DNA of 19,307 bases from Nocardia spumae (GTDB lineage: Bacteria; Actinomycetota; Actinomycetes; Mycobacteriales; Mycobacteriaceae): NCBI RefSeq assembly GCF_020733635.1, contig NZ_JAJFZL010000004.1, positions 1 through 19,307 on the forward strand. The letters are read 5' to 3'. Position numbers and translations under genes: made by a program. How positions within the stretch are numbered: the first letter of the stretch is position 1; the number at the start of each line of letters is the position of its first letter. Shown here in pieces: positions 4,485 through 18,880 of this stretch. Below the pieces are notes generated by a model. It was not told the origin of the DNA and ran no database searches. It saw only the letters and a program-made list of their open reading frames with translations.

Positions 4485-4557
4485 GCGCCCGTAGCTCAAC
4501 GGATAGAGCATCTGACTACGGATCAGAAGGTTGGGAGTTCGAGTCTCTCCGGGCGCG
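4485..4557 (+). tRNA. tRNA-Arg(ACG), probable integration target of the element
   Basis: The acceptor arm GCGCCCG pairs with CGGGCGC, with discriminator G. The anticodon stem TCTGA/TCAGA encloses loop CTACGGA, giving anticodon ACG. The T-loop is GTTCGAGTC. The tRNA is complete. The element's integrase ends 72 bp downstream on the opposite strand, the usual arrangement when a tyrosine recombinase inserts at a tRNA 3' end and restores the tRNA. Confidence 0.96.
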
Positions 4558-4560
4558 CAG
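4518..4560. other. Probable attL core within the tRNA-Arg 3' half
   Basis: AICE integrases usually cross over within the segment from anticodon loop to 3' end of a tRNA and leave it as a direct repeat at both borders. This segment sits next to int, so it is the expected left border. The placement is inferred: no second copy was found by eye in this window, so core length and right border are unknown. Confidence 0.45.
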
Positions 4561-4629: not shown

Positions 4630-5847
4630 TCACTTTCCCCTTATATTCGAATCCGTACTTTCCTTCGCGTACCGGTCGAGGACCTCGCGAACATCCGGAC
4701 CGTGCGTGCGCCGTTCGACGTAGTGGTGCTCGGTCGTCGCGAGCTGAGCGTGGGACAGCTGGGCTTGTGCCTGCTCGACTCCGAGGCCGTCGCGGATCAC
4801 CGTTCCCACGGTTCGCCGCAGCGAATACGGAGTGACCCACTTCAGGTCATCGGGCAGTGCAGCACGCAGAGACCGCCGAAGGTTGTTCAGGCTCATCCAC
4901 TCGCCGTCGCGATTCGGAAAGACCGGCTTGTCCGCGAGAGTCTCCAACGATTCGAGATCCTTGCTCGCTTCACCGAGCAGCTGAGCCAGCGCTTCGACAG
5001 CCAGCGATGGCAATACGACCGTGTGATCGGGCGCATCGCCCTTCCGAGAATCCTGCCGACGCAACGACTGACCTTTGACCTTGCCGTGATCGATCACCGT
5101 GCCCGCGACCGTCATGACTGGCGGATCGGACAGCAGATCGACATCCGACCAACGAAGCCCGAGCACCTCATTCGGCCGGCACCCGGTCGAGCCCATCACA
5201 TCGACGAACGGAGGCAACAGACGTCCTGGTCGTGGACCGGAAACGTGTTCACGTTGGGTGTACGCGACCACCGCCGCGCGAACCCTCGCGAACTCGTCCA
5301 CGGTCAAGGCACGCACCGGCGTCTTCTTCCTCGTATTACGCGATGTCTCTCGGAGCGGATTGACCGCCAGCACGTCATGCCGGACAGCCATCGCGAACAT
5401 GCCGGTGAGTGCCACCCGGAGAAACTTGGCCTGACTCATCGCCGACTCAGCCACGATCCCGAGGTGGCTTTCAGCGCGACTGGTCGGGAATTCTCGGACC
5501 CGCAGTTCACCGATCTGCTTGGCGCCGTGCTTGTCCCATGCACGCTGGTATTTGTCGACGCTTTGGCGCTTCAGCCCGGCTTTCTCCTTGCTCGCGATCC
5601 ACAACGCGAACAGCTCGGCGAGCGTCGTACGCTCCGTTATCACCGTGCTCGCAGAGGGCGAGGTTCGGGTTTTCAAGTGCCGCTGGAGATTGCGCCGGGC
5701 ATCTTCTTCGCTTCGCCCACTGCGCTCGACCTGGCGGCGCTTCCCGTCCTGATCGCGAACGTAGGTGCTCGCGGTGAACTTCTCCGGCCCGGCCTGAGTG
5801 ACGGAGATCTTGCCCCACTCGCCGGGGGCCATCCGCTGTCTGGGCAT
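4630..5847 (-). CDS. int: Tyrosine recombinase integrase of the AICE
   Basis: A 405-residue phage-type integrase that would recombine attP with a tRNA attB and, with Xis, excise the element. The N-terminus is a beta-rich arm-binding region (10-60), followed by a core-binding SAM-like domain (about 72-170) and the catalytic domain. Catalytic residues visible are Arg224 in TGCRPNEVLGLRW, Lys near 256-269, Arg344 in YSLRRT, His366 in LSHAQ and nucleophile Tyr376 in EHHYVER. The usual His of H-x-x-R is Tyr341. The ATG at 5847 follows the xis stop by 4 nt and is preferred over the in-frame extension to 5907, which runs inside xis. Last gene of the leftward operon and the gene nearest tRNA-Arg. Confidence 0.95.
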   Translation of the reverse strand: MPRQRMAPGEWGKISVTQAGPEKFTASTYVRDQDGKRRQVERSGRSEEDARRNLQRHLKTRTSPSASTVITERTTLAELFALWIASKEKAGLKRQSVDKYQRAWDKHGAKQIGELRVREFPTSRAESHLGIVAESAMSQAKFLRVALTGMFAMAVRHDVLAVNPLRETSRNTRKKTPVRALTVDEFARVRAAVVAYTQREHVSGPRPGRLLPPFVDVMGSTGCRPNEVLGLRWSDVDLLSDPPVMTVAGTVIDHGKVKGQSLRRQDSRKGDAPDHTVVLPSLAVEALAQLLGEASKDLESLETLADKPVFPNRDGEWMSLNNLRRSLRAALPDDLKWVTPYSLRRTVGTVIRDGLGVEQAQAQLSHAQLATTEHHYVERRTHGPDVREVLDRYAKESTDSNIRGK

Positions 5848-5851
5848 GACG

Positions 5852-6025
5852 CTATGCCGCCTGGTCCAGAGCGTCGATGTAGTCGGCCACCGCCTGTTCG
5901 CTGACAAACCGGCGCCGCCCGACTTTCACCGAGCGCAGCTCACCGGAGCCGATCAGTTCGTAGTACTTGCTGTGCCCGATCGGGATGAGCTTGCGAACTT
6001 CCGCCTCATTCAGAAGCTTGGACAT
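5852..6025 (-). CDS. xis: Excisionase (MerR-like winged helix)
   Basis: A 57-residue basic protein with the excisionase/HTH_17 pattern: LNEAEVRKLIPIGHSKYYELI, then G-E-L-R-S-V-K-V-G-R-R-R-F, then a closing helix (SEQAVADYIDAL). Such proteins bend attachment-site DNA and steer the integrase towards excision. The ribosome-binding site AGGAGG overlaps the end of repSA 10 nt before the ATG, and int starts 4 nt after its stop. The three genes are therefore co-transcribed and probably translationally coupled, as in pSAM2. Confidence 0.92.
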   Translation of the reverse strand: MSKLLNEAEVRKLIPIGHSKYYELIGSGELRSVKVGRRRFVSEQAVADYIDALDQAA

Positions 6026-6035
6026 GAAACCCCTC

Positions 6036-7748
6036 CTATGCTGCGTTGTGGATTGCCGAAACTTGTTGTGTGCCTGGTGGTCCCGCTGCCAGGCGAGCGT
6101 TTTCGTATTGAGCGCGCCATTTGATCCGTTGAGCGATCGAGGCCATGACCAGGTGCTCGCGAGGTGGCACGTTCCTGTCTCCCGGCTCGACCGGTTTGAC
6201 GATCAGCCGGGACGTATCCGGTTTCTGAATGCCGACCTGGGCGAGAAGTTGCCGAACAAACTCGGCGCGGTCGGCCTTGTGATCCGGGAGGGTCTTTCCG
6301 GTCCAGCGGCGCGAGACCAGGACACGACGACCGCGCAGGCCGAGGGTGTCTCGGCGGTGGGCTTTGCCCTTGCAACGGCCCGGCTGGGTCTTGTCGGTGG
6401 CCCCCTTCGGATTGATGCCGTAGCGCAGCCAGACACCGCAGTTCGGTGAGCACGGTGTCTTGCACAGTTCCGCGTGGAGCCGGTCGTAGTGGTCGGCGGC
6501 GCGAGCGGTCTGGGGCTCGATCACTTCAGCGATGGATTTGGTGAGGTATTTGGTCAGGTAACCGACGTGCCGGGATGCTTCCTCACTGCCCCCGAGTACG
6601 CCCTTGATGTCTTTCGGGTCGATCTGTTTGCCGAAGGTCACCACGTGGGCGGGTTCGAAGTTGTCGACCGTATCGAGCACGTCCATGGCTTCGTCCCACG
6701 TCGGTAGGGGCTCGGCGGTGTCGGGGTCGACGAATCGGCCGGCGGTGTAGTCCCAGACCGGCATGTGCCCATCGGTGTACTGCTCGTTGTCGGGGTCGAA
6801 GTGCGGCCACCACACCTGGTGGTAGGTCGCGGCCGCGATCTGCAGAATCAACGCCCTGGGGTCGGTGCCGCGCACAGCCATGTGAATATGTGGTGCTCCG
6901 CGCTTCTGTGGCTCTACCGTGGCGAAGTACTGAATGTCGCGGCCGGTCGCGCGGCGGTAGTTCTGTACGAACCGGTCGAACAGCGCCGGGAAGAACACGA
7001 TGTCCCGGGCGGCGCGTCGGTAGTCGTAGCTATCGGGGTCAGCGGCCGATCCGTCCGAGCACGGTTTGCCGTCCGCGTTGGTTGCACCGTCGCGGTTGAT
7101 CTTGCCGTAGGAGTCCAGCGTGAGAGTGATGAACATTGAGGGCCGGTACTTGCCCGCGTATTGACGGCCGATCGTGGCCTTGTCGATCTTCTTGCGTGGC
7201 AGATCAGGGACGTCCTGGCGGCGTCGGGTGGACCGTTTGCGCTCCGATTTCGGCTCGGGATCCAGCGCCGGAAGACGCCCGCGCACACCGGTTTCGCGCA
7301 GATCCGCATCCACGTCCGAGACCACTTCACGGATGCCGTCCATCATGTCCTGATCGCCGGACGCCTTGGCTTCCTGGTAGTTGGTCATCAGGCTTGCGCG
7401 AGTCTCGACCAGCTCCAACTGGTGTTGGGTGGGGTCGCGTTTGATGTCGACGGGTTCGGTTTCGATGTGCCAGCCTTCGTGGGCCTGCTGCATCCGAAGG
7501 GAGCGAGCCTTGGCCGCGCACGAGGGGCACACACTTTCCAGCGTCGATTTGCAGGGGGCACCAACGTATTTCGTATCCCCGGTATCGCGGTCATAGGTGT
7601 ACATCGGAATCGGGCGCCGGCACTCGCCGTATTTGTCGGCGGCGGCCTGGGCGATCTCGTGCAGGTTCGGAATTGAGCGGCGATCGGCGGCGGTGTCCCG
7701 GACAGGGCCGAGGGAGGCCGGATCGGTGTCAGGCTGTTGGTCTGTCAT
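6036..7748 (-). CDS. repSA: RepSA-type rolling-circle replication initiator
   Basis: A 570-residue replication initiator that would nick the element's double-strand origin and start rolling-circle replication after excision. The three classic motifs are present: motif 1 FITLTLD (206-212), motif 2 with the metal-binding HUH triad HIH (287-289), and motif 3 YLTKYLTK with Tyr397/Tyr401 as nucleophile candidates. Cysteines at 43, 66, 74 and 77 (CPSC), and a second Cys group beyond residue 420, suggest zinc binding, common in RepSA proteins. The ATG at 7748 is chosen because GGAGG lies 8 nt upstream; an in-frame GTG at 7781 overlaps the upstream stop as GTGA and is a less likely start. The origin was not identified. 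Confidence 0.93.
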   Translation of the reverse strand: MTDQQPDTDPASLGPVRDTAADRRSIPNLHEIAQAAADKYGECRRPIPMYTYDRDTGDTKYVGAPCKSTLESVCPSCAAKARSLRMQQAHEGWHIETEPVDIKRDPTQHQLELVETRASLMTNYQEAKASGDQDMMDGIREVVSDVDADLRETGVRGRLPALDPEPKSERKRSTRRRQDVPDLPRKKIDKATIGRQYAGKYRPSMFITLTLDSYGKINRDGATNADGKPCSDGSAADPDSYDYRRAARDIVFFPALFDRFVQNYRRATGRDIQYFATVEPQKRGAPHIHMAVRGTDPRALILQIAAATYHQVWWPHFDPDNEQYTDGHMPVWDYTAGRFVDPDTAEPLPTWDEAMDVLDTVDNFEPAHVVTFGKQIDPKDIKGVLGGSEEASRHVGYLTKYLTKSIAEVIEPQTARAADHYDRLHAELCKTPCSPNCGVWLRYGINPKGATDKTQPGRCKGKAHRRDTLGLRGRRVLVSRRWTGKTLPDHKADRAEFVRQLLAQVGIQKPDTSRLIVKPVEPGDRNVPPREHLVMASIAQRIKWRAQYENARLAAGPPGTQQVSAIHNAA

Positions 7749-7777
7749 GGTCTGGCCTCCCTCGAGGTTGGTGGGTT

Positions 7778-8452
7778 TCACGCGGCGTTTCCGCCTTCCT
7801 GACGGGGCAGCCCGCCCAGTCCGCCGGGGATGTGTGCGAATGGGGCAGAAATCGGCTTAGCGAGCGAATCAGCGCGCCGGAAAGCCAGTTCCACGCGAGC
7901 CGGGCCGGTGATGCTGACGCGGCATTCCTGCGCCCCGAACGCATGCGCCAGATGGCTTGCGCGGTTGGCCCAGTCGTCGGGGCACTGACCGGGCAGCATC
8001 GCGACTCGCACGGTGTCGATGGCCGTCCCGATGTCGATGCCCAGCAGCCGCGGAATCTTCACCGCTGCGCCGAGGTCGTCACGGGCCGACAGGCTGCAAT
8101 CGTCCAGCCGTGCTGACCACTGCCGCCGATACCGGAACCAGGACAGAAACCGCGACCGGGCACGGCGAGTGATCCAGCGGGAAAACGATTCCGGAGCCTT
8201 CACCCGCCACAGGGCCAGCGCAGCGACCGAGGCCATTGTCATGCCGAGGGCCGGGAGCCAGCCGTAGAACCAGAAAAGGCCGGCCACCGCAGCGATCGGC
8301 AGCGACACCATCGGGAACAGCAGCGCCCACCAGGCCGCTAGGAACACCGCGATCACCGCCCAGCCGATCAGGGCGAGAAACAGGGTCGCGAGGTCCTCTA
8401 CCGGGTCGCGGCGGGTCCGGACCGTGGTGGTGGTTTTGGTCGTGGTGCTCAC
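7778..8452 (-). CDS. Membrane protein of the AICE transfer/replication operon
   Basis: A 224-residue protein. A Thr-rich basic N-terminus is followed by two or three hydrophobic segments (about 22-82), a basic stretch (RRARSRFLSWFRYRRQ), and a soluble C-terminal domain with DDWANRASHLAHAFGA and VELAFRRADSLAKPI. That C-terminal pattern resembles the domain between the membrane anchor and the motor in some FtsK/Tra proteins of actinobacterial elements, so it may assist the separate motor protein. This link is inferred. GTG start at 8452 overlaps the upstream stop as GTGA, and its own TGA lies 30 nt before the repSA ATG. No enzymatic motif is visible. Confidence 0.75.
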   Translation of the reverse strand: MSTTTKTTTTVRTRRDPVEDLATLFLALIGWAVIAVFLAAWWALLFPMVSLPIAAVAGLFWFYGWLPALGMTMASVAALALWRVKAPESFSRWITRRARSRFLSWFRYRRQWSARLDDCSLSARDDLGAAVKIPRLLGIDIGTAIDTVRVAMLPGQCPDDWANRASHLAHAFGAQECRVSITGPARVELAFRRADSLAKPISAPFAHIPGGLGGLPRQEGGNAA

Positions 8453-8774: not shown

Positions 8775-9061
8775 TTCGGGTTCTCCTGTTCATCGGGGGC
8801 GCCACAGCGGTCGCAGCGGCGAAGGGTGTTCGTGGAGGGGAAGCGGTGGCCGCGCAGGTCGCATTCGGCGGTGATGGCGCAGCCGTCGCAGGTGATGCGG
8901 TCCCCGTCGTAGAGCCAGCCGTTACGACCGGCGGCGAGGTAGTAGGCGGCGTGATGGGTGGAGGTGAAGCAGACCGCGTGCCCACCTGCGTCGGTATAGA
9001 GGTCGCCGCAGCTGTCGCAGTAGATGACCACGTGGTTTTCGGTGACCATGCCGCGTTTCAT
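8771..9061 (-). CDS. Zinc-ribbon-like small protein
   Basis: A 96-residue protein with three Cys pairs: C15-x2-C18 (CDSCG), C58-x2-C61 (CDGC) and C83-x2-C86 (CDRCG), plus C31, C67 and H72 as further candidate ligands. The spacing suggests at least two zinc knuckles or ribbons. It may be a nucleic-acid or protein-binding accessory factor of transfer. The ATG overlaps the stop of the FtsK-like gene as ATGA, so expression is linked to the motor. Function is not known. Confidence 0.75.
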   Translation of the reverse strand: MKRGMVTENHVVIYCDSCGDLYTDAGGHAVCFTSTHHAAYYLAAGRNGWLYDGDRITCDGCAITAECDLRGHRFPSTNTLRRCDRCGAPDEQENPK

Positions 9062-10389
9062 GCCGCCACCGGACCCGTGTAGCCGTCACCGGGGATGTCG
9101 TCGCCCAGGTCGTCGGGGTCGAAATCGCTGTAATCGGCGGCCGGGGCGAAATCGGTTGCCGGGGAATACATGTCCACGATCGCGTCGGCTTGCTCGTCGG
9201 AGATCCAGAACGCACGCACACGCACGAACTCCGTGGTGCCGTCTTCGCCGACATAGCCGACACCGGGCGTGGTTTCGGGGATCTTGTCGCACAACGCGCC
9301 CCGGTCCCGCGCTCCTTGCCCGTGCACCATCGCGGTCTGTGTCGGTTCGTCCAGGCGCAGGCCGATGCGGACCGGGAACAGTTGCCGGTTGGGCATCGTC
9401 TCCTTGGACGGGTCCTGCAAGGCCGCGATCACCGAGACACCAGCGGCACGGCCCTTGGACTGCAACATGCCCGTCAGACGCCGGAACTCGTTTTGCTCGT
9501 CACGGTCGGCATACGAGGACAGCGACGCGGCCTCATCGATGACGATCACGATCAGTGGTTCATCCGGCGAGGGGACCAGCTTGCGGACCCCTGCGGCGCG
9601 CATGCGGGCCAGGCGCTCGTCCATCTCGGTCACGGCCTCGCGCAGCATGGCGAGGATGGTGGAGGCGTCGACAGCGAAGCGGACGAACAGCCGGTTTTCA
9701 CCGCGCCCGAACTCCACACCGCCTTTCGGGTCGGCCATCCACACATCCACGAACCCGGCTTTGATCGCCGGACCGAGGCCGGCCAGGATCGACCACAACA
9801 CCGAGCCCTTACCCGAGCCGGTGGCACCGGCAAGAAGGATGTGCGAGTACAGGATTCGCAGCAGCCACGGCGTCCCGTCTTCCCGCACACCTACCGGCAC
9901 CGCTTCCAGGTCGACACCGGCAGCCACCGTGGTGGGGTCGGTGGTGACCGATTCGGCCAGGGTGTCGTGAACGCGGAGTTCCAGCCGCACCCAGCCCGGA
10001 GCAGGCGAGGACGCGGTGACCTGCTGCACTCCGACGTGGTCAGCGATGCGGGAGCGGGTGTCGTCGTTGGTCCAGTCGGCCAGGGTTTGCCCACCGCGCA
10101 TCAGCACGTCGACGGTCAGGCCGTGGCGGGAGTAGTCCCACCACTCGACGCGCGGGAACCCGGTCTCGGCCGAGCCGAGCTTGAGCAGGGAAAACATCAG
10201 TTGTGCGTGTGCCGTGGAGGCGAACGACACGATTGCCGGGCGAAGAATCTCCGGTGCCTCGGCCAGTTCGCGTTCCAGGCTCACGGCGGTCGTGGTGGTG
10301 GGGCGGCGGCCCCACGGCAAGATGTGTGCCGCGAACACCAGCGCCCCTATCGCCGACGCCGCGACCGGAACCATGTCGACGACGGTCAT
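9058..10389 (-). CDS. traSA: FtsK/SpoIIIE-type DNA translocase (TraSA/TraB-like)
   Basis: A 443-residue motor protein. In AICEs one such ATPase moves double-stranded plasmid DNA through the membrane into the recipient mycelium or cell. One transmembrane segment (about 7-25) is followed by a linker domain (about 75-165) with PGWVRLELRVHDTLAE, then the motor domain with Walker A GATGSGKG (188-195) and Walker B LIVIVIDEAA (279-288). The tail is acidic (SDFDPDDLGDD). Start ATG at 10389 overlaps the upstream stop as ATGA, with AAGGAG placed before it. It is shorter than chromosomal FtsK and has a single anchor, as expected for element-borne Tra proteins. The DNA sites it recognises (clt) were not found. 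Confidence 0.92.
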   Translation of the reverse strand: MTVVDMVPVAASAIGALVFAAHILPWGRRPTTTTAVSLERELAEAPEILRPAIVSFASTAHAQLMFSLLKLGSAETGFPRVEWWDYSRHGLTVDVLMRGGQTLADWTNDDTRSRIADHVGVQQVTASSPAPGWVRLELRVHDTLAESVTTDPTTVAAGVDLEAVPVGVREDGTPWLLRILYSHILLAGATGSGKGSVLWSILAGLGPAIKAGFVDVWMADPKGGVEFGRGENRLFVRFAVDASTILAMLREAVTEMDERLARMRAAGVRKLVPSPDEPLIVIVIDEAASLSSYADRDEQNEFRRLTGMLQSKGRAAGVSVIAALQDPSKETMPNRQLFPVRIGLRLDEPTQTAMVHGQGARDRGALCDKIPETTPGVGYVGEDGTTEFVRVRAFWISDEQADAIVDMYSPATDFAPAADYSDFDPDDLGDDIPGDGYTGPVAA

Positions 10390-10679
10390 TGCCAGGGCTC
10401 CTTCGAGTTGTCGAGGCCGCACAGCAGCTGACAGCCCTGCACATCGGCCGGAGGCAAGCCCGGCTCGTGGCAGAACATGGTGCAGCCGGAATCCGGAGCG
10501 ACGAGGGAGGGTTCGTCGTCGCACAACATCACGCAGCCCGGTTTGCCGGTGGCGTGTTCGACAGCGGCCGGAGCCACCTCGTGGCGCGGACCGAACGCCA
10601 AGAAGCCGGCCACACCGAGGGCTGCGGCGGTGACGGCGAGGGTGGTAGCACCCACGGTCACAGCGCCAGTGGTTTCCAT
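10386..10679 (-). CDS. Membrane-anchored protein with three 17-residue Cys repeats
   Basis: A 97-residue protein with one N-terminal hydrophobic segment (about 8-30), followed by three repeats beginning G-C-x3-C: C49/C53, C66/C70 and C83/C87. The period is exactly 17 residues. Repeats read GCVMLCDDE, GCTMFCHEP and GCQLLCGLD. The pattern suggests metal binding or paired disulfides outside the membrane; neither is proven. Position between the DUF2637 protein and the Tra motor is where Spd (spread) proteins lie in Streptomyces elements, so a role in intercellular spread is a reasonable inference. The stop overlaps the tra ATG, and the ATG is preceded by GGGAG. Confidence 0.78.
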   Translation of the reverse strand: METTGAVTVGATTLAVTAAALGVAGFLAFGPRHEVAPAAVEHATGKPGCVMLCDDEPSLVAPDSGCTMFCHEPGLPPADVQGCQLLCGLDNSKEPWQ

Positions 10680-10685
10680 GACAGA

Positions 10686-11297
10686 TCAGCTCCCGATCGG
10701 GACGGACACCGGCAGCAACGGCTGCGCGGGTCGAGAAACAGGAATCGGTTGCGCCACAGCCACCGCAGGCACAGAAGGCACCATCGGGGCAGGCGCGGCA
10801 GGTTCGGGCTCCACAGTTTCGCGGTCGTCTTCGGCAGCGGCGGGAGCATCCTGTTCGAACTCGGCCACCGCAGCGGCGGGAGCCGAATCATGTTGGGCGG
10901 CACGGAACAGCACTGCCAGGCCGTGGGTGTCCACGAGCAGCGATATCGGGGCGATGGCCGCGACGATCGCGCACAGCCACGCGGGTAGCTCTTTGCCGGC
11001 GGCTACGGCGTGGATGCTGTTGCCCGCCACCGACACCAGCGCCCCGACCACCAGAACCCAGGTGAAGAACCTTCGTTCGGCGGATTTGGCCAGGACCAAA
11101 GCGCCGGCGGTGGCCTGAACGATGGTGCCGTCGATGATCAGTGGGAACAGCCACGCATCCGACGCCGGAATATGCGCCAGTTTGGCCAGATCCCGCAGCG
11201 TGGCGAACGACAGCCGGAACGCGGCAGCGCCGACGCCCACGATCACCAGGACCGCGAACACCCGCGCCGCACGCATTCCCCGCTCAGGCGTGAACAT
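10686..11297 (-). CDS. DUF2637-type multi-pass membrane protein (Spd-like)
   Basis: A 203-residue protein with about four transmembrane segments (roughly 12-28, 46-66, 74-92, 104-120), including RLSFATLRDLA and PLIIDGTIVQATAGAL, characteristic of DUF2637 proteins on actinobacterial conjugative elements. An acidic then Pro/Ala/Val-rich cytoplasmic tail follows (about 135-203). Such proteins are thought to help plasmid spread with the Tra motor. ATG at 11297 shares its A with the upstream stop (TGATG) and has GGAGAAGG 8-9 nt before it; the longer in-frame start at 11333 lies inside the neighbour. Intact. Confidence 0.85.
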   Translation of the reverse strand: MFTPERGMRAARVFAVLVIVGVGAAAFRLSFATLRDLAKLAHIPASDAWLFPLIIDGTIVQATAGALVLAKSAERRFFTWVLVVGALVSVAGNSIHAVAAGKELPAWLCAIVAAIAPISLLVDTHGLAVLFRAAQHDSAPAAAVAEFEQDAPAAAEDDRETVEPEPAAPAPMVPSVPAVAVAQPIPVSRPAQPLLPVSVPIGS

Positions 11298-11554
11298 CAG
11301 GCAGCCTTCTCCGCTGCCAGCCCGCTCCGCCACCGTCGTGCTATCAGGATCTGCGGCAGCTGCCTCAGCGATGGGTGCGGCTCCTCGAGCGACAGATACA
11401 GCCGCGCATACCCGATGGCCTCTCGTGGTTCATCTCCACGCTCACCGAGGCCCGGATCGGCCCCGATGGCGGTTGTCGCGCGCCGGGCCGTACTCGGCCT
11501 CGGTGCCATCGAACTTGCTGATGTGTGCGCTGATGAACGGACACGGCGATTCAC
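11297..11554 (-). pseudogene. Small gene upstream of the DUF2637 protein, probably frameshifted
   Basis: An 85-codon frame runs from a GTG at 11554, overlapping the pra-like stop as GTGA, to the TGA at 11297. Its second half (EPREAIGYARLYLSLEEPHPSLRQ and on) looks like real protein. Its first half is Arg/Ser/Thr-rich with poor third-position GC, while the neighbouring frame in that part reads better (CPFISAHISKFDGTEAEYG). Two compensating indels would explain this. Overlaps at both ends support a real gene in the operon. No family is recognised. Confidence 0.5.
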
Positions 11555-12005
11555 GCAGCCTTCGCGTCGCCACGCGCCGGACGGTCGCACCCCGGATCGG
11601 CCGCGGGGACTTTGGCGCCGGAGTTGTCGCCCGCGATGCCGGTAGCCCGCACCGTCCAGCCCAGGGTCTTGACTCGCCCTGACCGGTGACCTTCGGTTGA
11701 AGGGTCACGTTCTCGCGCACGATCGAGCGCATGCCGGGCAGCACCTCCGGAGTCGAGGGCACCGGAGCCACGTCGGCCAGGAAGATCCCCTGAATGCTCG
11801 ACTTCTTCGGGTTGTCTCGGCGGGTTGGTGGCGGTGGCCCTTCCCACCTGCCGCAGACCCGTCCACCGGTCGACCTTCTGACGAGCCGGAGCGTTGCGGT
11901 TCTGGTTGTACTCGGTGTCCGGCTCGATCTCCGCGACCCAGGACGAGGCCCTTCTCGAAGGCTTCGTTGAACGCGACGTTGAAAAGCAGATCTTTGAGCG
12001 CCCAT
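11551..12005 (-). pseudogene. pra: Pra-like activator of replication, integration and excision, frameshifted
   Basis: In pSAM2 the small protein Pra activates the rep-xis-int operon. Reading across frames here gives a Pra-like protein: ALKDLLFNVAFNEAFEKG, EIEPDTEYNQNRNAPARQ, FLADVAPVPSTPEVLPGMR, VRENVTLQPKV and finally TVRATGI, close to the conserved end of Pra. The ATG at 12005 has AAAGGAG 8 nt upstream, but the frame breaks at once: ATGGGCGCTC would need one G less. A second extra G is likely at CCTGGGTCGCG, with further breaks near 11850 and 11665. It lies first in the operon, behind the twin operator region. The family call is by pattern and context. As written, the gene cannot make a full protein. 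Confidence 0.65.
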
Positions 12006-12070
12006 GACTGAATCTCCTTTGCGTCTGGGTTCATTCGAATCTCGCCTCACTCGGTAGCGGCGCTGGATTC

Positions 12071-12099
12071 ATCGTATACGTAGTTGCGTATACGCACAA
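12071..12099 (-). promoter_or_regulatory. Leftward promoter covered by a CGTATACG-N6-CGTATACG operator
   Basis: On the minus strand, TTGTGC (12094-12099) and TACGAT (12071-12076) are 17 bp apart. The two palindromic octamers at 12073-12080 and 12087-12094 fill the spacer and touch both boxes. A protein bound there would block polymerase. The start would fall about 60 nt before the pra-like ATG, so this is the likely main promoter of the transfer operon. In pSAM2 the GntR-type repressor KorSA controls the pra promoter through a repeated site. Assigning this operator to the nearby KorSA-like protein is inference. Confidence 0.7.
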
Positions 12100-12160
12100 G
12101 GAATTTGGTATAGAAGGCGAGAAAGGTCAAACCTCGCTGGTCAGCGCGGCGAAAACTGTC

Positions 12161-12189
12161 TTGTCCGTATACGTATCTTCGTATACGCT
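12161..12189 (+). promoter_or_regulatory. Rightward promoter covered by a second CGTATACG-N6-CGTATACG operator
   Basis: TTGTCC (12161-12166) and TACGCT (12184-12189) are 17 bp apart, with octamers at 12166-12173 and 12180-12187 between them. It is an inverted copy of the leftward site, 93 bp away centre to centre, sharing the pattern TTGTnCGTATACG-N6-CGTATACGnT. It points at the small plus-strand gene at 12279 and onwards to the korSA-like gene. Confidence 0.68.
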
Positions 12190-12278
12190 GAGCGATGTAA
12201 GACGCTATCGCCGACCGGTCGAGAGCTTGCTGCGACGCTCGACACGCGCGCATCACGGACCAAGAAGGTCCGTGCGCA

Positions 12279-12559
12279 ATGAGGTTCCGCCCTACGGCCC
12301 TCTCGCCGTGGCATCGACCCCGATGTCCCCGTCGCCGCCAGACTGGCTCGTGCCAGGTCCAGCGCCTGGCGAGGCTCTGGGCTATGCCGCCTCATTTGCC
12401 GGCGAGTTCGTTGTGCCGTTGCCCTGCTCAGGTCCGCGCGGCCGACGTCGATGCGGTGATCGTCCCTACGGCAAGCCACCTGGCCCCGCTAACCCTGACA
12501 ACCTAAGGGCTTCAGCCGATGTCGAAGCCGACCTACTCGAACCTGTGTTCGCTCGATAG
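12279..12559 (+). pseudogene. Small gene driven from the divergent operator, frameshifted
   Basis: Reading across frames from ATG 12279 gives a protein of about 95 residues with PYGPLAV, ALGYAASFAGEFVV, then VRAADVDAVIVPTASHLAP and a final RASADVEA segment, ending at TAG 12557-12559 in the last frame. The D-A-V-I-V-P-x-x-x-H-L pattern recalls small resolvase-like hypothetical proteins on actinobacterial elements; that is a weak resemblance. At least three frame changes are needed. Position behind the rightward promoter suggests an early-expressed or regulatory gene. Confidence 0.45.
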
Positions 12560-12760
12560 GCGATGCCGCAGGACGTGGACGGCGGGGGTGAACGCGTTGG
12601 GACACCCTCGGACTGCTTTCGTGGTCCAGCTCTGACGGCTGTGGGTGTATTGCGCGTTGCGTACTGGCCGGAGCGCCGTCCCTCCGATCGTTCGGCCGAT
12701 GGGCTGAATGGAGGGTTAGTCGCTACGGGCAACCGGATTCGAATACCTGGAAATTTCGCG

Positions 12761-12806
12761 CGATACCCAGTGCGATACGGTTTAACGATACGAAGTGCGC
12801 TATACT
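12761..12806 (+). promoter_or_regulatory. Triple CGATAC repeat and -10 box before the korSA-like gene
   Basis: CGATAC occurs at 12761-12766, 12773-12778 and 12786-12791, that is every 12-13 bp, roughly one helical turn. A TATACT -10-like box follows at 12801-12806, about 50 bp before the ATG. The hexamer resembles the CGTATAC half of the twin operators, which suggests autoregulation by the same repressor. The 220 bp before it (12560-12760) show no convincing gene. Confidence 0.5.
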
Positions 12807-12854
12807 AGTCCCCCGTCCTACGCGCTAGTGATTTCGAATGAAGGGAATGACCTC

Positions 12855-13529
12855 ATGGCGGAACCTGCCTACGTCTCCATCGCTGGGCGAATATGCTCGC
12901 CGAATTCGCGGCGGAGAATTGCCGCCCGGAACTCAACTGCCGAGCTATTCGGAAATCGCGGCGCGCAACAATGTCTCCGACATCGTGGTTCGGAAGGCAC
13001 TCGAGCTCCTTCAGAGCCAAGGGCTCGTCCGGTCTGTGCGCAGGCGCGGAGTGTTCGTATCGGATCGGCCGACCTGATCCGGATCTCGCCCGAACGTCAG
13101 ATGGAGGACCCGGAAGTGACGTTCGCGAACGAGTCCGACAGCACGTGTTCAGATCGACCGGGCAACGGAGAAGGTGTCGGCACAGAAGCATTGCCGATGC
13201 CCTTGGCGTAGCAGTCGGCGAAGAGATCACCCACGTCGTCACCCGCGCCAGCGAAGATGGCCCGGCCGATTTCCGTGTCTGACAGCTAACCAGCCCGTCG
13301 ACGTAGCGGACACGTCCGACGCTGCCACCCATGAGGAAACGGTGGCGGGACAGCATCCCGGTGCCGTCACACGCGGAGAGGTTGAAGACCACCCCCGGCG
13401 ACTCGTGAAGACCGGTCCACCAGCGCTACATCACCGCGACAGGACGAGTAATTATGGTCTCGGATGTGTCCTACCCGAGGATCGCTATACGCATTTGTTT
13501 TCCGCATGAACCTGAAACCGGAAACTTGA
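12855..13529 (+). pseudogene. korSA: KorSA-like GntR/UTRA transcriptional repressor, frameshifted
   Basis: The protein is clear across frames: an N-terminal GntR winged helix (GEYARRIRGGELPPGTQLP, SYSEIAARNNVSDIVVRKAL, LLQSQGLVRSVRRRGVFV), then a UTRA-type ligand domain (IADALGVAVGEEITHVVTRAS, VHQRYITATGRVIMVSDVSY) ending RMNLKPET. KorSA in pSAM2 is such a protein and silences pra and thereby replication and transfer. The first break is GCTGGGCGAA at about 12891, fixed by removing one G; the next, near 13074, by adding one. About nine breaks occur in 675 bp, so no working repressor is encoded as written. The UTRA core is hardly changed in sequence, unusual for an old pseudogene. ATG 12855 follows a GAAGGGAATG ribosome-binding region. 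Confidence 0.75.
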
Positions 13530-13559
13530 AGCGGCTACCGAGAAATAAAGCTCTGCGCG

Positions 13560-17723: not shown

Positions 17724-17857
17724 GTGGCCGCCCCCCTTAGCGGTCTCGTCTACCGAGCGTCATTTACTGGTGTGCTTCCTTGCCTAACTCGCCCGCAAGG
17801 GCACATTCGTTGCTGGGGGGCCCCACGGGGCATTTTGAAAGAAGAAGTTACGGCCAG

Positions 17858-18880
17858 ATGCCTGCGAAGAAGTTGCGCATTCCGCATCCTCCTGAGGTCG
17901 CTGCTCGCGTATTGTTCGATGTCGGACCGAACGTGCTGTGTGTGTCGAAACAAGAAGCCGGTGCAAATTCATCATATTGATGATAATCCAAGTAATAATG
18001 ATTTCGGAAACCTTGCTGTCCTATGCTTCGATTGTCACCGTGAGACTCAGATTCAAGGCGGGTTTGACCGCAAGCTAGATTCTGATCAAGTAGCTCTGTA
18101 TCGCCGGCATTGGCTTGAGCCGTGTGCGCGCGTATCGTTCGGGTTCGTTCCTATGCGGAAGGAAAGCCTGAAGAGCGGTCGATGAGTTGAAGCTGCGGGA
18201 AATACTTGCAAAGCTGGAAGGGAGTTGCTCGGGAACAAGAGGATTGGCTCGCGGTGGCGCGATTGTATAGCCAATCTGGCGATGAACATCTGAGGGATAA
18301 GTATGTCGAGCGGTGCACTAGAAAATGATCCAAGTCCATTTTATCAAGTTCTAATAAGGAACGTCCAGGGAATTGCGGAAAATGCTTCCCGAGGATGTTC
18401 AGGATCGGCAGTCGAGGAGGTTAGTGATATTGGAGCACTAAGGCTGGAGTGCTTGCGGAAGTAGGGCGTGTACAAAGATCCGCCGAGGTGCTCCTGGGGG
18501 GTATTCGGGAGGCGCTGATTGCCGATAACTATTTTACAGCTGGCATACTATATTAAGAATTTGTTGAGCAAATCTGGCCGATGACCTATTCATCCCTGGC
18601 GCTCAAAGATTTCATTCGCGTATGACGACCTGTGGTGGCAACTGCGTGTTTTTGAAGAGCTTGGATGGGAGGATGAGGCGAATGAATTGCTGCTGAAGAA
18701 TGAGCATCGAATTGCAAATTCCGGAGATGCTGTATTTCAGATGAAGCTCGCATCTGCAAAGGGCGTACCGAGGCGTATCTCGCGAAGGTGGTTGAGATCG
18801 AGGCGAGGGGGCCGGCGGCCTGGGATACAGCTTCCCAAATTGACGAAGAAGCAGAGGATGGTAACGCTGAGGAATTCTAG
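17858..18880 (+). pseudogene. HNH endonuclease-type protein with long helical tail, frameshifted
   Basis: ATG 17858 opens MPAKKLRIPHPPEVAARVL; one indel near 17915 moves to SDRTCCVCRNKKPVQIHHID, then SNNDFGNLAVLCFDCH and GFDRKLDSDQVALYRRHWLE. This is a complete HNH core: CxxC, HH, Asn and CxxCH. Downstream, fragments in shifting frames continue the same protein: EDWLAVARLYSQSGDEHLR, YQVLIRNVQGIAE, SAEVLLGGIREALIADNYF, DDLWWQLRVFEELGWEDEAN, AVFQMKLASAKG and an acidic end at TAG 18878-18880. The tail looks like TPR-style helical hairpins. Length would be about 335-340 residues. AT content is clearly higher than around it (for example 17970-18010), a sign of transfer. It may be a defence nuclease, but no partner gene is visible. 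Six or more frame changes. Confidence 0.68.

Follow-up and report, generated by a model that had tools for sequence, protein, structure and literature searches.

The window, that is, the whole stretch of DNA analysed here, is a complete contig (C4, 19,307 bases) of a 7.07-Mb Nocardia genome, and contains a RepSA/FtsK/integrase element (AICE) of ~14.8 kb at a tRNA-Arg gene. With a RepSA-type initiator, an FtsK-type transfer protein, a tyrosine integrase, and a tRNA att site, the element belongs to the AICEs of the pSAM2 type. The 38-bp att sequence (4522–4559) recurs in another contig (C3) and near the far end of the large contig C1, which starts, at its opposite end, inside the element and is identical to the window across 1,161 bases. 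The genes for the tyrosine integrase (4630–5907), the RepSA replication initiator (6036–7781), the FtsK/SpoIIIE-type transfer protein (9058–10524), and a DUF2637 (Spd-like) membrane protein (10686–11333) all lie leftward on the minus strand, together with a second leftward gene (11300–11537, minus strand; in pieces in this contig, with an 83-aa homologue, P0002) and a pra homologue (11554–12005, minus strand; broken in this contig) that heads the series. Among the relatives of the product of this first leftward gene (P0001), some are named ‘Plasmid replication, integration and excision activator’ (Pra) in their source. The plus strand carries a small gene of a ~103-aa family (12279–12590, end approximate), the frame of which is broken here and open in C3 and the relatives, followed by the place of a gene for a tiny single-pass membrane protein (12600–12760, limits approximate), known from the relatives and not intact in the window. 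A korSA-like GntR-UTRA repressor gene (12855–13542, plus strand, end from tblastn) lies 0.6 kb to the right of the operators described below; it is broken in the window, and its intact homologue in the N. elegans copy (P0003) contains both the GntR and the UTRA domains. The original prediction of a transfer operon on one side and a small gene to the right agrees with the gene map, in which the leftward series, headed by pra, also comprises replication and integration genes. On the plus strand at 17724–18185, weak matches to IscB and ZorE models are also seen, far below their cut-offs.

Four exact copies of the octamer CGTATACG are present in the window (12073, 12087, 12166, and 12180), and make up two pairs of the pattern CGTATACG-N6-CGTATACG. 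This pair pattern appeared in none of 200 dinucleotide shuffles of the window, in support of the view that so many octamers are far beyond chance. The leftward (pra) promoter-operator (12071–12099, minus strand) consists of a −35 box TTGTGC and a −10 box TACGAT separated by a 17-bp spacer with the octamers at 12073 and 12087, an architecture that is kept in the relatives. The rightward promoter-operator of the small gene (12161–12189, plus strand) has TTGTCC and TACGCT at the same spacing, with the octamers at 12166 and 12180. On re-reading, the two 29-bp spans, their spacers, the 93-bp offset, and the hexamers on their respective strands were all as originally proposed. Two further octamers are degraded in the window. 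One is a third octamer of the pra promoter (12107–12114), which in the window is represented by GGTATAG (12107–12113) but is exact in C3, C5, N. africana, N. cerradoensis, N. elegans, and N. wallacei; the other belongs to the promoter of the korSA-like gene (12785–12792), where the window reads ACGATACG and where C3, C5, and the closest relatives with pra and the small gene have the exact octamer. A putative −10 box of the korSA-like gene, TATACT, is located at 12801–12806 on the plus strand.

Further, noisy copies of the element are found on contigs C3 (19,704 bases) and C5 (14,825 bases), and within this genome, no exact pair lies outside the element copies on C3, C4, and C5. The divergence of C3 and C5 from the window is ~4–5%, much of it in small gaps; the private differences of each copy are patchy, and those of the window are frequent at 12000–13000. 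The right pair is identical across the three copies. The left pair is perfect within this genome only in the window, with C3 and C5 each differing at both left octamers; because the contigs disagree by ~4–5%, largely in small gaps, it is uncertain what the left pair reads in this strain. Perfect left pairs are found in the copies of N. africana, N. cerradoensis, and N. elegans. The broken frames in this stretch are presumably, for the main part, contig noise. As for the assembly (L005, L006, and contigs C1 and C3–C5 examined), it breaks inside the element: C5 holds a single full unit with no chromosomal DNA, and the end of C3 carries a 107-base repeat of att and the element start. Therefore, the element is either arranged in tandem or also exists as a circle.

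Comparison across genomes demonstrates, at the level of sequence, the octamer sites, how they fit the predicted promoters, and how they are linked to the repressor gene. The exact pair was found in 16 of 150 Nocardia genomes including the present one, and the reversed control pattern in 0 of 150. In the copies of N. africana, N. cerradoensis, and N. elegans, two exact pairs lie at a distance of 94 bp, and in that of N. wallacei strain 740803001, the two pairs are 213 bp apart. All four of these clean relatives contain six octamers: the pra pair and a third 20–22 bp from it, the small-gene pair, and one before the GntR gene (50–64 bp upstream). The predicted four-octamer set is therefore correct for the window, in which all four are exact, but is part of a larger set of six at three promoters. 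Likewise, the two-way switch that had been envisaged is supported in so far as the pra-first operon and the small gene both carry pairs, but a third promoter, the repressor's own, has to be included. The third octamer is located 19–22 bp from the pra-promoter pair in the Nocardia relatives, a distance of about two helical turns that would suit cooperative binding on one face. At four loci without the small gene (L166, L170, L171, and L174), the pair, the third octamer, and the kor octamer lie within a single short intergenic region. Search of the related elements thus found the pattern conserved beside pra and korSA-like genes, as anticipated.

In the N. africana copy, with gene names assigned through matches to the window, the leftward series occupies a single strand with gaps of at most ~106 bp, in the order pra, 83 aa, Spd-like, 99 aa, FtsK, 101 aa, 57 aa, 239 aa, RepSA, 57-aa Xis-like, and integrase; the 57-aa protein between RepSA and integrase is Xis-like by our own reading. 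At L169 and L172, an octamer triple with TTGAGC and TACGCT is situated downstream of the repressor gene, before a putative gene that we likewise read as Xis-like. At these two loci, the promoter geometry is kept and the gene order is not.

To obtain an unbiased view of the association between the octamer and the repressor gene, the repressor protein alone was searched against 148 Nocardia genomes, of which 47 matched (46 besides the present one), and the 47 GntR loci outside this genome (one genome has two) were each taken with up to 1.4 kb upstream. The exact octamer is found upstream of the GntR gene in 33 of the 47 loci within 1400 bp and in 32 within 200 bp, with the runners-up among the 256 palindromic octamers reaching 13 and 4, respectively. 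It is absent within 1400 bp in 14 of the 47 loci, 3 of which are also devoid of a one-mismatch site. Where P0001 finds pra, 22 of 23 GntR loci have the exact octamer; where it finds none, 11 of 24 do. In the relatives, the GntR-UTRA repressor gene adjoins the pra homologue, and in the four clean relatives, C3, and C5, octamers are common to the pra and kor promoters, as expected of a KorSA/Pra switch.

When the motif was taken as the starting point, 13 of the 15 other Nocardia genomes with the exact pair had a GntR gene in the fetched region; at two Nocardia pair loci (L167 and L175), it is absent from that region. Among the matches listed, a GntR gene (E ≤ 1e-15) was detected in 33 of 117 genome_contigs stretches, including those of Actinomadura, Planobispora, Kibdelosporangium, and Catenulispora, and 31 of these 33 have octamers within 2 kb upstream of it, whereas the fetched stretch contains no GntR gene in the other 84. 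The same octamer pair also occurs, with no GntR gene in the fetched stretch, in Bradyrhizobium (L033, L035, and L096) and Cupriavidus (L041, L044, L054, and L073), where it probably serves another regulator. Of the 15 pair matches on viral contigs, none (0/15) had a GntR gene, pra, or the small gene within the stretch fetched. A phylum-wide search with the protein yielded a match at E ≤ 1e-50 in 1 of 395 other genomes, and was not usable as a second unbiased test because the matches were too sparse.

The flanks of 80 exact sites in the 47 GntR loci gave the operator consensus TnCGTATACGnA, in which the flank +2 position is A in 137 of 160 strand readings and T in the other 23. At the pra promoters, where the second octamer reaches into the −10 box, this position is T and completes TAnnnT. 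In a scripted survey of 23 pra loci, which allowed up to three mismatches and included three loci with one extra base between the octamers, TTGT at −35 and the T completing TAnnnT were present in all 20 pra promoters where the script chose the correct pair. At the remaining three (L178, L179, and L181), the script took the small-gene pair on the wrong strand, and their pra pairs, read separately, also have TTGT and the T. Among the small-gene promoters (n = 6), the final T is found in 6 of 6 and TTGT in 5 of 6, one of these being shifted by one base. The two hexamers predicted for each of the two promoters are accordingly conserved in the relatives. The kor promoter has an imperfect pair in 14 of the 47 loci, and in nine of them, the second unit GTATACT provides TATACT as the −10 box.

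Based on this evidence, it is most likely, with a probability of roughly 0.86, that the KorSA-type GntR-UTRA repressor encoded by the element itself has CGTATACG (extended, TnCGTATACGnA) as its operator unit and acts at three promoters. Sites of a host regulator or nucleoid protein, lying near the repressor gene incidentally, would account for the pairs found without a GntR gene in the fetched stretch in, for example, Cupriavidus and Bradyrhizobium. Such an explanation is very unlikely, given that the exact pair in this genome is confined to the element copies, that the pair tracks the GntR gene, and that the promoter geometry is kept at L169 and L172 despite their different gene order. In Streptomyces plasmids, the FtsK-like TraB recognises 8-bp repeats, and the repeats in the window, also of 8 bp, adjoin the transfer operon; they could then be DNA-transfer (clt/TRS-like) repeats for the FtsK-type translocase, or replication sites. 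This is hardly credible for octamers that sit in promoter spacers, overlap a conserved −10 box, and recur at the repressor's own promoter.

An explanation of another kind, compatible with repressor operators, is that poor contig quality is partly responsible for the perfect reading of all four octamers, as the disagreement of C3 and C5 with the window at both left octamers and the accumulation of private differences of the window in that very kilobase would suggest. We regard it as possible but rather doubtful, since the three copies agree in the right pair and, in three clean relatives, both promoters carry perfect pairs, at the 94-bp distance.

The reading of the octamers as operators of the KorSA-type repressor leads to the following model. 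Two units 14 bp apart would fill the −35/−10 spacer of both the pra-first operon and the small-gene promoter, with a third unit upstream of the −35 box at the pra-first operon, and the repressor's own promoter would have one unit or, in some relatives, an imperfect pair. The bound repressor is assumed to exclude RNA polymerase from all three promoters, so that the element stays integrated. When repression is lost, the transfer, replication, and excision genes and the small-gene cassette would fire together. The UTRA domain suggests that the repressor has a ligand, through which this loss may possibly occur. Judging from the compared loci, a single KorSA-type repressor very probably has control of three promoters, including that of a captured host-family gene; its binding to the octamers, the repression, and the induction are what we infer from this arrangement.

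KorSA of pSAM2 has an operator of 17 nt. It acts on its own promoter and on the pra promoter, and according to the parts of the two reports consulted, a KorSA site of its own was not found upstream of traSA (PMC8584621, PMC3218068). The closest likeness to the present arrangement is SCO3932/SCO3933 in the AICE remnant SCO3937 of S. coelicolor, in which a GntR/HutC-UTRA KorSA homologue is divergent from a Pra homologue and the kor/pra region has been footprinted, revealing a K1 site near kor and a larger K2 site with a repeated motif over the pra-side start (PMC8584621, consulted in part). As far as that part goes, the SCO3932 motif, AC[TC]T[AG]TT[GC][TG][GT]ACG, differs from CGTATACG, kor and pra share one intergenic region with no small-gene promoter between them, unlike here, and SCO3932 is also reported to have the host targets cpkD and actII-orf4 (PMC8584621). 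In pSAM2, as described in the consulted material, pra is downstream of korSA and repSA-xis-int form a Pra-activated operon, whereas here pra heads one long leftward series; the targets within pSAM2 are pra and korSA, whereas a third promoter with sites, that of the small gene, carries the pair here. Because of this third promoter, the switch was filed as a variant and not as the pSAM2 regulon itself. It is a variant of the known KorSA/Pra type (pSAM2; SCO3932/SCO3933), from which it differs in operator sequence and in having an additional target. CGTATACG was not seen in the consulted parts of PMC8584621 and PMC3218068; in the literature searched, the octamer by itself appears in 133 papers, and together with GntR in one, which deals with an E. 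coli promoter. Within that literature, the operator code, its spread across AICE repressors of several actinobacterial genera, and the cassette-bearing third target appear to be new. The predicted code, TnCGTATACGnA paired at 14 bp, is concrete and testable for this branch of AICE repressors, and lets repressor targets be read from sequence; a host-family gene under conjugation control would also make the old question of AICE kil functions more approachable.

The small-gene family has matches (E ≤ 1e-12) in 84 of 148 Nocardia genomes, with up to 16 per genome. Among the 30 small-gene loci listed, 7 have a GntR gene nearby, including the own C3 copy; all 7 of these show a pair with at most one mismatch per octamer in the 400 bp preceding the small gene, as against 0 of the 23 loci that lack the GntR gene, two of which have one stray octamer site. 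By this count, the octamers follow the repressor and not the small gene, which fits a host cassette that was captured and provided with an operator. The other Nocardia cassette loci, without the octamer pair, tend to lie beside divergent XRE-type (HTH_31) regulators of ~400 aa (7 of 10 hand-picked neighbouring ORFs), in contrast to the element cassette with its pair. A strong hydrophobic stretch occurs in a downstream frame within ~330 bases in 24 of the 30 listed loci, a raw count with no background control, and these frames mostly have a WP-type motif behind; the two-gene order of small gene and tiny membrane protein is common to the element relatives. To our knowledge, this Nocardia-wide cassette has no published name. 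We tentatively suggest, as a possibility open to considerable doubt, that the element captured a host-genus cassette (a small α/β protein and a ~50-aa membrane protein; at other loci, an XRE-type regulator is often its neighbour) and, through an additional operator pair, placed it under the conjugation repressor, so that a kil-like or host-modulating function would be released only when the element is active. The direction and history of such a capture are themselves deduced from the present-day loci.

The small protein gave no Pfam match above the cut-off, no NCBIfam, PADLOC, or PHROGs match, and, against PDB sequences, a single match at chance level. Its structure model has a four-stranded α/β fold with a mean pLDDT of 85.8. 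A Foldseek search with the model returned no match at E ≤ 0.001 and 1499 weaker ones, and among the best 50 of these is a single chain with the title serine recombinase (6dgb, rank 37); a resolvase-like origin suggested by this model match is only a lead. A distant homologue of the small gene (36–37% identity) takes the place of pra at L188, L189, and L190, divergent from the GntR gene with octamers between them. In elements of Actinomadura and Planobispora (L064 and L065), the product of a gene divergent from the GntR gene and its octamers looks, from the translations, WhiB-like rather than Pra.
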